Below are positions 51,129-54,558 of a stretch of 64,000 nucleotides of DNA, piece after piece (within the stretch, counting starts at the first letter, position 1; every line of letters begins with the position of its first letter). The notes under the pieces were generated by a model. The model saw only the letters and a program-made list of their open reading frames with translations. It ran no database searches and was not told the DNA's origin. Position numbers and translations under genes: made by a program. Origin of the DNA: Gracilimonas mengyeensis (lineage in GTDB: Bacteria > Bacteroidota > Rhodothermia > Balneolales > Balneolaceae); NCBI RefSeq assembly GCF_900182705.1, contig NZ_FXTP01000002.1, positions 372,001 through 436,000 on the forward strand, written 5' to 3'.

Positions 51129-51911
51129 AACCTGCTTTCTATTGCTGCGTGTATGATTTAGGCTGCTCTTATTCTGCCTGATTTCAGGTCTTCATTTTAT
51201 ATTCAATTAAAAGCATTACAGACGAAAGAGACCTATTTCTTGTATTTCAATGAGCAAATTATATCATATAAGTGAGCAATAATTATAATTATGTTGGGCT
51301 AATCATGCGCGTAATGTCGAAAGTATTCAACCTCAAGTTTTTGTGAGGTATTGATAAAAACAATATAAATCATTATTTAGCAGGTAATTAAAGAAGTGTT
51401 TAAACCTTTGTGAAGATGATCTCGGTTTATTACATTAATAATAGTTGTTGGTCAATTAATGATTGTATTAGGGCAAAAGTTTGCTCAAAAAAGTAAAATC
51501 TCATTGATTGATTAGTTGGAGTTAATCACAATTTCGACACAAAGAAATTTTGGGAGTTGGGATAATAAGCGATAAAAAGTCTATGCGGGTATTCCAGTCT
51601 CTTTGTAACCGATGCATTTTTTGAAATACCAGAGATTTCTCTGCTATAGAATCAGATTTGAAATTATGCTGATCGGATAATCATCTATCTATCCACTCAT
51701 AAATCGAAGGCCGCAATGTTGATCCCATTGCGGCCTTTTTTTAATAAGATAAGAGATAGATGTTTTAGGCTAATAAGTTGAATTTAATGCAAATACATTT
51801 GGTGTCCTTTTTTTTGCAATGTATATTATCAAATTGTTAACACAATGTTTCCAATGCATAAAGGAAAAAATCTTACAGGTTTCTTTAGAACAATAGGAGA
51901 GCATAATTCCA
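51129..51911. other. 783-bp intergenic region with orphan terminator
   Basis: AT-rich, without a credible gene on either strand. The only strong element is the terminator at 51707-51742, nearly 600 bases from the upstream gene's stop and oriented plus, which would fit an unannotated small RNA or long 3' UTR. Confidence 0.55.
51707..51742 (+). terminator. orphan rho-independent terminator
   Basis: 12-base perfect stem AAGGCCGCAATG / CATTGCGGCCTT, loop TTGATCC, seven further Ts. One of the strongest terminators in the window, yet no gene ends nearby. Confidence 0.85.
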
Positions 51912-52658
51912 ATGAGTTTTGACAAAGTGCAGGAGCAACGGTTTGAACTCAAATACCTTATCAATGAGCAAAAAGCTCAGAATGTTCGACATTTCATAAA
52001 GAATTACCTGGATGCTGATGAGTATGGCATAACCCAGCCCCAAAATTCCTACAGTGTGCATAGTCTGTACCTTGATTCCTCTAATCTTAAGACATATCAG
52101 GATACGATTAACGGGAACAGAAACCGCTTTAAAATACGTATTCGGCATTATGGCGGGGAAGATCAGGAATCCGTCTACTTGGAAATGAAGCGCAGATACG
52201 ACCGGGTAATTACTAAAGCCCGTGCAAAGGTGCCGGTCAAAAAGCTGGAAGAAATAATATACGGACCTTTGCCTACTATGGATCATCTGGTTAATCAAAC
52301 AGAAGAACAGCTTAGATCGCTTCAGCAAATTTGCCGGATGATTCGTGAAATAAATGCCCGCCCACAGATTCACGTAGCCTATCTCCGGGAAGCGTATGAA
52401 CTGGAAGAATCCAACGCGGTTCGTATCACTTTTGACCGGGATGTTACTGCCAGTTACACCAATTCGCTGAGTCTCCGTGCTGAGCAGGACAACCCGGTAA
52501 ATGTATTTGGGAAAACTGTGATTTTAGAATTGAAGTTTACCAACCGATACCCACACTGGATGAATGAGTTGACCCAGCTTTTTCATCTCCGGCTGGAATC
52601 AGCAGCCAAATATGTTGACGGAGTAAATGTCCTTAAAAGAAAGAAGAAAATTGCCTGA
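51912..52658 (+). CDS. VTC-domain (polyphosphate polymerase-like) protein
   Basis: 248 residues forming a single triphosphate-tunnel-type domain. Charged tunnel motifs: RFELKYLINEQ (near 10), YSVHSLYLDSSNLKTYQDTINGNRNRFKIRIRHYG (40-75), VYLEMKRRYDRVITKARAKV (near 85-105), VILELKFTNRYPHWMNEL and SAAKYVDGV at the end. In yeast Vtc4 this domain makes polyphosphate from ATP. No SPX domain or membrane anchor is present. First gene of a three-gene operon; the DUF4956 gene follows after 9 bases. Confidence 0.88.
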   Translation: MSFDKVQEQRFELKYLINEQKAQNVRHFIKNYLDADEYGITQPQNSYSVHSLYLDSSNLKTYQDTINGNRNRFKIRIRHYGGEDQESVYLEMKRRYDRVITKARAKVPVKKLEEIIYGPLPTMDHLVNQTEEQLRSLQQICRMIREINARPQIHVAYLREAYELEESNAVRITFDRDVTASYTNSLSLRAEQDNPVNVFGKTVILELKFTNRYPHWMNELTQLFHLRLESAAKYVDGVNVLKRKKKIA

Positions 52659-52667
52659 CCGTACTTT

Positions 52668-53354
52668 ATGGAACAATTAATGAAATTCGGAGATACGGCT
52701 CCGTTACCAACCGATATTCCCACTCTTTTAATTGCATTGTTGCTGGCTTTTTTATGCGGGCAGTTACTGGCCTGGATATATATGTACACGCATACAGGGC
52801 TGTCTTATTCGCGTACTTTTGTGAGCTCTCTTATCATTATGCCAATCACAGTGGCATTGGTTATGATGATTTTGGACAACAACATTGTGACGGCATTTAG
52901 TTTGTTGGCGGTGTTTGCTATTGTCCGTTTTCGGAATATTCTGAGGGATACCCTTGATACGGTGTACATATTATCGCTGATTGTAATCGGGATGGCTTGT
53001 GGTACCCAGAAATTTACTACAGCCCTAATCGGCACCCTCGTTGCCGGGTCGGTTCTTATCTATATCTGGTTTACTAACTTTGGCGCACGCCAGCGGTATG
53101 ATTTGATCCTCAACCTGAACTGGAGCCGGCCCTTAAGTTCTTTGGAGGCTCTTGAACAGTTTTTAGACCGGCATGCCTTTAAAACCCATTTGGCATCTCA
53201 AAATACCAGCCATGATGGCTCCTCCACTCAACTGTCATATCGGTTGTTACTCAGGAACCCTGATCGCACCCAGGATTTATTGAATGAAATTGCGGAGATA
53301 CAGGGAGTCTCAAAGGTGAGCAGCATGGTTGCAGAAGATGAATCGGAGGTATAA
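52668..53354 (+). CDS. DUF4956 membrane protein
   Basis: 228 residues. Four hydrophobic helices fill residues 15-140 (LLIALLLAFLCGQLLAWIY, FVSSLIIMPITVALVMMIL, FSLLAVFAIVRFRNILRDT, ALIGTLVAGSVLIYIW); the motif FAIVRFRNILRDTLDTVYI is characteristic of DUF4956. The C-terminal 85 residues form a soluble ferredoxin-like domain. DUF4956 genes are commonly next to VTC-domain genes in bacteria, so joint action is likely, but the biochemical role is not known. The downstream HlyD gene starts 2 bases after its stop. Confidence 0.87.
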   Translation: MEQLMKFGDTAPLPTDIPTLLIALLLAFLCGQLLAWIYMYTHTGLSYSRTFVSSLIIMPITVALVMMILDNNIVTAFSLLAVFAIVRFRNILRDTLDTVYILSLIVIGMACGTQKFTTALIGTLVAGSVLIYIWFTNFGARQRYDLILNLNWSRPLSSLEALEQFLDRHAFKTHLASQNTSHDGSSTQLSYRLLLRNPDRTQDLLNEIAEIQGVSKVSSMVAEDESEV

Positions 53355-53356
53355 GG

Positions 53357-54451
53357 ATGTCAGACGAAAATAAAAAATACGAGCGTATTCCTGTCCCACT
53401 TTCACAGAAATTGAAGGAAGTACGGCACCGTATTGTGCCCTTGCTAGTGTTTCTGGTCGTGTTGGGTTTTGTAGTATATCTGTGGGATATGCGGGTGAGT
53501 ACTCCCGGTTTTACGGGTAAAGTAGTGGCTGACAGTACCTTGGTTGCCAGCCCCTATGATGGAACACTAAATCAGTTTTACCTGGAGCCCTTTGATGTAG
53601 TGGAAAAAGGAGATCCGGTGGCTACCATCATCCGCACGGACAGCAGCTATCTGCAGTCCAGGCTTCAGTTGGTTGAGTCACAAATAAACCAGGTAAGAAG
53701 CGGGTTGGAACCCATGGTGAATCACCAGCGAAACATCATGGATTATGAAAACCTGCGACTGGATCACATGCAAAACCGTGTAGAAGTGGCATCCCTCAAA
53801 ATCAGGGAGCAGCAACTAAAAGAAGCTTATGAAAGAGCTAAAGAGCTGTATGCCAAAGACGGAATCTCCGAAGCCGAATACGAGCGTATTGAAAGTGAAT
53901 ACCTTGTTGTAAAGTCTGAACGGGAAAGCAAAACGGAACTTATTGATCAGCTTGCAGGGCGGCTTGAAAACATTGAGCAATATATCATTGCTGATGATGT
54001 AGCTAATCCGCTAAATGCGGCCATTGATGTATATGAAAAAGAACTGAAAGTGGTGGAGGAAGAGCTAAAGCCACGGACTATTTATGCTCCGATGTCAGGC
54101 ATCGTTAGCAAAGTGTATAAGCATGACGGTGAGTTTGCGCGGGCAGGCGATCAAATCCTGGAGATTGAAGCTACCGAGCCTTCGTATATTGTAGGGTATC
54201 TACGTCAGCCTTTTGTGATTGAACCGGAGGAAGGTATGGAAGTGGAAGTACGTACACGAAAGCCTTCCCGGCATTTCTTTACCTCTCATATCGTCAAAAT
54301 AGGAGGGCACATTGAGATTTTAGAACCTGGAATGGGAACTCCGGGAGCCAGTGCACAGGAGAGTGGGTTGCCCATTCAAATTGCAATACGCAATACCGGA
54401 GATGTGACATTGTACCCGGGTGAGTTTGTTGATATTGTGCTGGAGAGATAG
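53357..54451 (+). CDS. HlyD-family membrane fusion/adaptor protein
   Basis: 364 residues. One N-terminal membrane helix (IVPLLVFLVVLGFVVYLW, 27-44), then a biotinyl-lipoyl-like half (FTGKVVADSTLVASPYDGTL), a long coiled-coil hairpin (95-215) and the second lipoyl half with the barrel (RTIYAPMSGIVSKVYKHDGEFARAGDQIL, near 235-265). Adaptors usually bridge an inner-membrane pump and an outer-membrane channel; no pump or TolC gene adjoins, so the VTC/DUF4956 pair takes their place. Last gene of the operon. Confidence 0.9.
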   Translation: MSDENKKYERIPVPLSQKLKEVRHRIVPLLVFLVVLGFVVYLWDMRVSTPGFTGKVVADSTLVASPYDGTLNQFYLEPFDVVEKGDPVATIIRTDSSYLQSRLQLVESQINQVRSGLEPMVNHQRNIMDYENLRLDHMQNRVEVASLKIREQQLKEAYERAKELYAKDGISEAEYERIESEYLVVKSERESKTELIDQLAGRLENIEQYIIADDVANPLNAAIDVYEKELKVVEEELKPRTIYAPMSGIVSKVYKHDGEFARAGDQILEIEATEPSYIVGYLRQPFVIEPEEGMEVEVRTRKPSRHFFTSHIVKIGGHIEILEPGMGTPGASAQESGLPIQIAIRNTGDVTLYPGEFVDIVLER

Positions 54452-54455
54452 ACTG

Positions 54456-54497
54456 TTTTAGGTTTTAGGTTTTAGGTTTTAGGTGCAAGGTGCAAGG
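54456..54497 (+). repeat. heptanucleotide tandem repeats
   Basis: Four TTTTAGG units (54456-54483) followed by two TGCAAGG units (54484-54497), just after the HlyD stop codon. Confidence 0.9.
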
Positions 54498-54529
54498 TGT
54501 TAGGGAAAAAGCCCCTTATATAGTTATTA

Positions 54530-54558
54530 CCTCGTTCCACACGTTCTGCGTTGGAACG
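54530..54558. repeat. dispersed REP-like sequence, copy 2
   Basis: CCTCGTTCCACACGTTCTGC followed by GTTGGAACG; the reverse complement resembles 13430-13460. Confidence 0.6.

Follow-up and report, generated by a model that had tools for sequence, protein, structure and literature searches.

The window, a stretch of 64,000 nucleotides of Gracilimonas mengyeensis DNA, contains a compact operon of three genes on the + strand, all with ATG starts. The first encodes a VTC protein of 248 aa (51912-52658; PF09359, E 8e-45), the second a DUF4956 protein of 228 aa (52668-53354; PF16316, E 1.2e-10, 41.8 bits against a cut-off of 30.6) and the third an HlyD/EmrA-type adaptor of 364 aa (53357-54451; HlyD_3, E 7e-12). 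The genes are spaced by 9 and 2 bases, and ORF calls and Pfam thus reproduce exactly the arrangement described in an earlier note on this DNA. On its 5' side the operon faces a thioredoxin-like gene across a gap of 780 bases, which contains a terminator-like hairpin on the + strand (51706-51738; a 13-pair stem followed by a T run, a consensus match only), and on its 3' side lies a convergent META-domain gene. No sigma-70-like promoter was found 5' of the operon on the same strand, a consensus that says little for Bacteroidota, and no Rfam family matched near it. The segment just 3' of the operon (54455-54557) holds a perfect repeat of the heptamer GTTTTAG in 4.3 copies and an inverted repeat, GTTCCA-N12-TGGAAC.

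The VTC protein consists of the VTC domain alone, which scores 153.6 bits against a family cut-off of 23; Pfam detects neither an SPX domain nor a VTC transmembrane domain in it. When 22 diverse bacterial VTC proteins are combined into a profile, the full length of the tunnel domain aligns with that of yeast Vtc4 (E 1e-24). In this alignment, residues K14, R76, R78, K93, K102, R159, R171, E206 and K233 of the G. mengyeensis protein correspond to Vtc4 K200, R264, R266, K281, K294, R361, R373, E426 and K458, respectively, and the nine positions are invariant across the 22 bacterial proteins. The possibility that the tunnel residues are not conserved, which would have weakened the proposal of the earlier note, is thereby removed. 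Vtc4 K200, K281, K294, R361, R373 and K458 line the active site. R264, R266 and E426 are the residues that were mutated to inactivate VTC (PMC9911596). Judged from this alignment, the 248-aa protein is predicted to be a polyphosphate polymerase, and polyphosphate would be its product. The literature searched contained no biochemical evidence of polyphosphate synthesis by any bacterial VTC protein. G. mengyeensis has PPK1, as do 17 of 23 relatives with VTC and 30 of 34 without it; because PPK1 occurs with or without VTC, a role of VTC as substitute for PPK1 was ruled out, and ordinary storage polyphosphate is not the default purpose of VTC. An apparent long N-terminal extension of the VTC proteins at loci L115 and L204 was also discarded: the extra part matches nothing, and at L115 an HlyD-like gene lies there in another frame.

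DUF4956 is predicted to be an inner-membrane protein in which about five transmembrane helices precede an ACT-like (ferredoxin-like) domain at the C-terminus (AlphaFold2 model, mean pLDDT 80). Residues 142-228 match ACT and S6-type folds (Foldseek, VIA-align), while the transmembrane part matched no solved channel in the same comparisons, which is not evidence of a new fold. Residues R87, F88, R89, R93, D94 and D97 are invariant among 43 sequences and belong to a charged segment, RFRNILRDTLD (residues 87-97; 52926-52958, + strand), that spans the end of helix 3 and the start of helix 4 in the model. The predicted topology would place this segment on the cytoplasmic side; more generally, the invariant stretches T41-S48, R87-D97 and R141-D145 would all be cytoplasmic if the C-terminal domain is.

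The adaptor is built of an N-terminal membrane anchor, a barrel-sandwich domain and a long alpha-hairpin (Pfam and an AlphaFold2 model of mean pLDDT 90), and its closest structure is EmrA of EmrAB-TolC (E 4e-17). The tip of the hairpin, residues 167-171 in the model, carries an RLS motif (R160-x3-L164-x6-S171; 53834-53869, + strand). In other adaptors, this pattern, RxxxLxxxxxxS, is the TolC-binding motif (PMC3391258). The arginine is present in all 70 VTC-linked adaptors compared (17 from order relatives and 53 from named-genome loci, two partly overlapping sets), the second position is L or M in 68 and the third S, T or A in 63. No ABC, RND or MFS gene that could serve as an energised inner-membrane transporter lies inside the operon, and among the ORFs and Pfam matches of the window no pump or outer-membrane gene adjoins it. 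The earlier statement that the adaptor lacks an outer-membrane partner holds only in cis; the genome has about 14 TolC-family genes (29 half-repeat matches), none of them linked to the operon, among which a partner may lie.

VTC occurs in 23 of 57 related genomes and in no other sampled member of the genus, so that its distribution is patchy. In the VTC-bearing relatives of the order, every contig that extends far enough shows VTC succeeded by DUF4956 and then HlyD. Of the three, DUF4956 has diverged least (about 60-79% identity, against about 50% for VTC and about 30-45% for HlyD). An independent scan of named genomes, from which 80 loci were kept, found the VTC-DUF4956-HlyD order shared by Balneolales, Verrucomicrobiota, Kiritimatiellae, Opitutales and Hydrogenedentota. 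DUF4956 and HlyD stand beside VTC in 58 of the 78 loci with a recognisable VTC. Four further loci show DUF4956 alone, the contig ending there, and about 15 have neither partner beside VTC. Some of these solitary VTC genes are second copies in assemblies that also have a full operon (L168/L201, L177/L203, L184/L208). In Verrucomicrobiota, VTC without adjacent DUF4956 or HlyD was seen at L175, L182, L189, L193, L194, L197, L201, L203, L205, L208, L211, L213 and L216. Across 50 complete operons, the three proteins diverge in step with one another (Spearman 0.60-0.71 between their pairwise distances), as expected for a unit inherited together, although part of the correlation is due to shared host descent. 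The linkage has held across at least two phyla, more than chance would allow.

The partners of DUF4956 vary more widely in the rest of the phylum, for which 296 Bacteroidota genomes were sampled and about 15 kb viewed at each of 39 class- and phylum-level VTC loci. DUF4956 is present in all 47 VTC-bearing genomes of this sample. In other ARRANGEMENTS, an HlyD-like gene is found at 23 of the 39 loci (L115 included), as a rule immediately 5' of VTC, and these upstream genes match the HlyD family of the window with an hhalign probability of 99. At 11 other loci of the 39, HlyD is replaced by DUF2490, a predicted outer-membrane barrel. VTC-DUF4956 with this barrel of unknown function in place of HlyD is seen at L121, L124, L126, L128 and L130. 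One locus, L118/L233, has CotH followed by DUF4956, HlyD, a gene of the TolC family (PF02321, E 4e-17) and VTC, after which the contig breaks off within an LTD-domain protein. At L225, VTC is missing and DUF4956 stands between an HlyD-like gene and one of the TolC family (E 1e-34). A second type of operon, found in 13 relatives, also lacks VTC and consists of YceI, DUF6580, DUF4956, HlyD, a 412-aa protein and a short-chain dehydrogenase; its adaptors are devoid of the RLS arginine. The 412-aa protein resembles the TolC family in profile comparison alone (probability 76, with controls below 2; E 2e-5); Pfam has nothing for it, and a direct PDB profile search gave no TolC support. An assignment as ABC permease, suggested by gene position, was set aside in view of the profile comparison. 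This VTC-free Balneolaceae operon is represented by L051-L063 (e.g., L060:6376-11379), and all these genomes also have CotH. At L223 (5116-9301), a myo-Inositol-1-phosphate synthase, DUF4956, a protein with a Porin_O_P match and CotH stand in a row, without VTC. The monoderm side comprises published cases and two plasmid loci, in Pseudobutyrivibrio and Planococcus, which have CotH, VTC and DUF4956 and from which HlyD is absent. Diderm DUF4956, by comparison, keeps company with envelope-spanning or outer-membrane parts of varying type, and this is the main ground for regarding DUF4956 as the inner-membrane component of a trans-envelope device, in which it may form the channel for a polymer.

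The strongest functional association of the operon is with CotH, a family that the earlier note did not mention. Within the phylum sample, CotH is present in 46 of 47 VTC-bearing genomes versus 60 of 249 VTC-free ones (p 4e-23, ignoring phylogeny). Among relatives, all 35 that bear DUF4956 have CotH, versus 7 of 22 others (p 8e-9, again ignoring phylogeny), and within the genus of the window the counts are 5 of 5 with DUF4956 versus 0 of 5 without. The VTC-free DUF4956 genomes of the family are also all CotH-positive, so that CotH is associated with DUF4956 no less than with VTC. Many relatives have secreted CotH-family proteins (LTD, Fn3_assoc, CotH, T9SS tail) on the flanks of the operon; among order loci, 9 of 19 show a CotH domain within the stretch viewed, and among phylum loci 16 of 39. 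No CotH gene lies in the window. The G. mengyeensis genome (G000) encodes two, both with LTD domains and both unlinked to the operon, on other contigs (C10:163752 and C6:26944); one has a T9SS sorting domain (Pfam) and the other ends in a tail that looks similar by eye. All three families of a CotH-VTC-DUF4956 module are thus present in this genome.

Several known systems share parts of this arrangement. The eukaryotic VTC complex (Vtc1/Vtc3/Vtc4; PMC9911596) shares the tunnel domain and its aligned active-site residues with the operon, and is the source of a model in which cytoplasmic synthesis is coupled to membrane translocation. The operon differs from it in that SPX is missing, DUF4956 stands in for the VTC transmembrane domains, the parts are encoded by separate genes, and a periplasmic adaptor has been added. 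In Gram-positive bacteria, cotH, a polyphosphate polymerase and DUF4956 are accessory genes of pel clusters (PMC7112168, PMC12345266), and NELoc-2 of C. perfringens holds a VTC/CotH cluster (PMC2879425). The core families VTC, DUF4956 and CotH are common to these systems and the present one. The Gram-positive versions, however, lack HlyD and TolC, carry CotH in cis and in streptococci and clostridia are tied to pel, whereas the CotH genes of G. mengyeensis lie apart from the operon and their products are T9SS-secreted, with no pel genes in the vicinity. With EmrAB-TolC and MacAB-TolC the operon shares the fold, anchor and RLS motif of the adaptor, and TolC-family channels, one of which may be its partner, are encoded elsewhere in the genome and also in related operons; unlike these pumps, the operon contains no MFS, ABC or RND pump gene, and DUF4956 occupies the place of the pump gene. 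No paper naming both a polyphosphate polymerase and HlyD was found in the literature searched, which left out most subscription journals and all preprints. The claim that no such system had been described consequently survives for the HlyD-bearing version only, since the VTC-DUF4956 core was already known with CotH. Within the searchable literature, the adaptor-bearing version, its spread in Bacteroidota and Verrucomicrobiota and its near-obligate CotH companionship appear to be new, and the operon is best read as a trans-envelope version of the CotH-VTC-DUF4956 module.

The main proposal, to which a probability of about 0.4 is assigned, is that the three genes specify the inner half of a device that makes a polyanion and exports it across the envelope, in concert with secreted CotH. 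At the cytoplasmic face, VTC would polymerise the gamma-phosphate of ATP inside its tunnel, as in yeast Vtc4, and the growing chain would enter DUF4956, acting as substitute for the transmembrane ring that the VTC complex has in eukaryotes. The HlyD/EmrA-type adaptor would seal the passage through the periplasm, its RLS tip docking a TolC-family channel encoded elsewhere. The chain would be driven outward by polymerisation itself, so that an ABC, RND or MFS pump would be unnecessary, and at the surface it would serve the T9SS-secreted CotH proteins. At the level of sequence, the proposal is founded on the genes themselves and the conservation of their linkage, on tunnel residues and a docking motif that are both intact, and on the co-occurrence of CotH. 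A VTC-DUF4956 unit with HlyD as periplasmic conduit had been offered as one reading in the earlier note; the operons with TolC-type channels (L118, L225) and the RLS motif now favour the conduit, while the product, its passage through DUF4956, its export and its use by CotH are what we infer. Points that weigh against the proposal are the absence of CotH from the window, the solitary VTC genes of Verrucomicrobiota, the missing RLS arginine in adaptors of the second operon type and the want of a channel match for the membrane part of DUF4956. The strongest contrary fact comes from S. intermedius, in which deletion of DUF4956 or cotH cut aggregation and altered Pel levels and deletion of VTC had no reported effect (PMC12345266). 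This result fits the VTC-free DUF4956 operons, and it leaves open that DUF4956 does something that VTC only assists.

The same experiments bear on a different account, considered unlikely, in which an exopolysaccharide or surface matrix is assembled or modified under the control of VTC-DUF4956 or with energy from it, and HlyD assists the exit of the matrix or its modifying proteins. The three genes adjoin Gram-positive pel clusters (PMC7112168), the DUF4956 and cotH deletions alter Pel level and aggregation, and the monoderm plasmid loci sit among glycosyltransferases. None of these genes is essential for Pel in S. intermedius (PMC12345266), however, and no glycosyltransferase was found beside the operon in the window. 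DUF4956 might instead be an MgtC-like membrane regulator of VTC and the adaptor, acting as sensor of a small ligand, with no polymer conduit at all. Its five predicted helices and ACT-like C-terminal fold agree with such a role, as do the appearance of the MgtC C-terminal domain (2lqj) among the matches to its own C-terminal domain, a comparison in which the membrane part is barely covered, and the annotation of SIR_1592 as MgtC-like TM plus ACT (PMC12345266). The C-terminal fold is very common, however, Pfam gave no MgtC match to DUF4956 at E up to 1, and a regulator alone fails to explain why trans-envelope partners recur and change type around a constant DUF4956; this account is regarded as rather improbable.

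It also seems quite doubtful that polyphosphate made by VTC stays at the inner membrane or in the periplasm while HlyD-TolC exports another cargo, for example a metal or small molecule complexed with polyphosphate. The VTC-free DUF4956-HlyD-OEP operons do indicate that adaptor and channel can work without VTC, and thus that the exported substance need not come from VTC; against this, HlyD shares an operon with VTC across phyla, and in the phylum sample VTC never occurs without DUF4956. That HlyD is an incidental neighbour of the VTC-DUF4956 pair, as one Bacteroidota group with the pair and no HlyD could suggest, is refuted for practical purposes by the conservation of the linkage, which is kept across phyla at about 35% mean adaptor identity and in two opposite gene orders. 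An adjacency due to chance or peculiar to this genome, the doubt attached to the original observation, is ruled out by the same recurrence across the order and phyla.

Bacteroidota and Verrucomicrobiota secrete many CotH-family kinases, and the source of the phosphoryl donor for extracellular kinases is an open problem. The trans-envelope proposal can be extended to this question: VTC polyphosphate exported through DUF4956, HlyD and TolC might be the donor for T9SS-secreted CotH kinases outside the cell, where ATP is absent. This extension is speculative and judged fairly improbable; if true, it would amount to an extracellular phosphorylation system with its own exported fuel, and the operon type offers a testable answer to the donor question, or at least a dedicated partner of CotH. 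The proposal, if true, would likewise mean that bacteria, too, couple the synthesis of polyphosphate to its translocation, here with a TolC-type conduit attached, and for DUF4956, a family of unknown function, the operon suggests a testable role as the component in the inner membrane. Two minor observations concern CotH itself. The Verrucomicrobiota genome G328 (locus L168) has 53 CotH-domain matches, an unusually large number. At L122 (8059-11375) and L125 (7599-11039), DUF4956 is flanked by VTC and by a long putative membrane protein bearing a weak CotH domain; CotH may be membrane-bound at these two loci.
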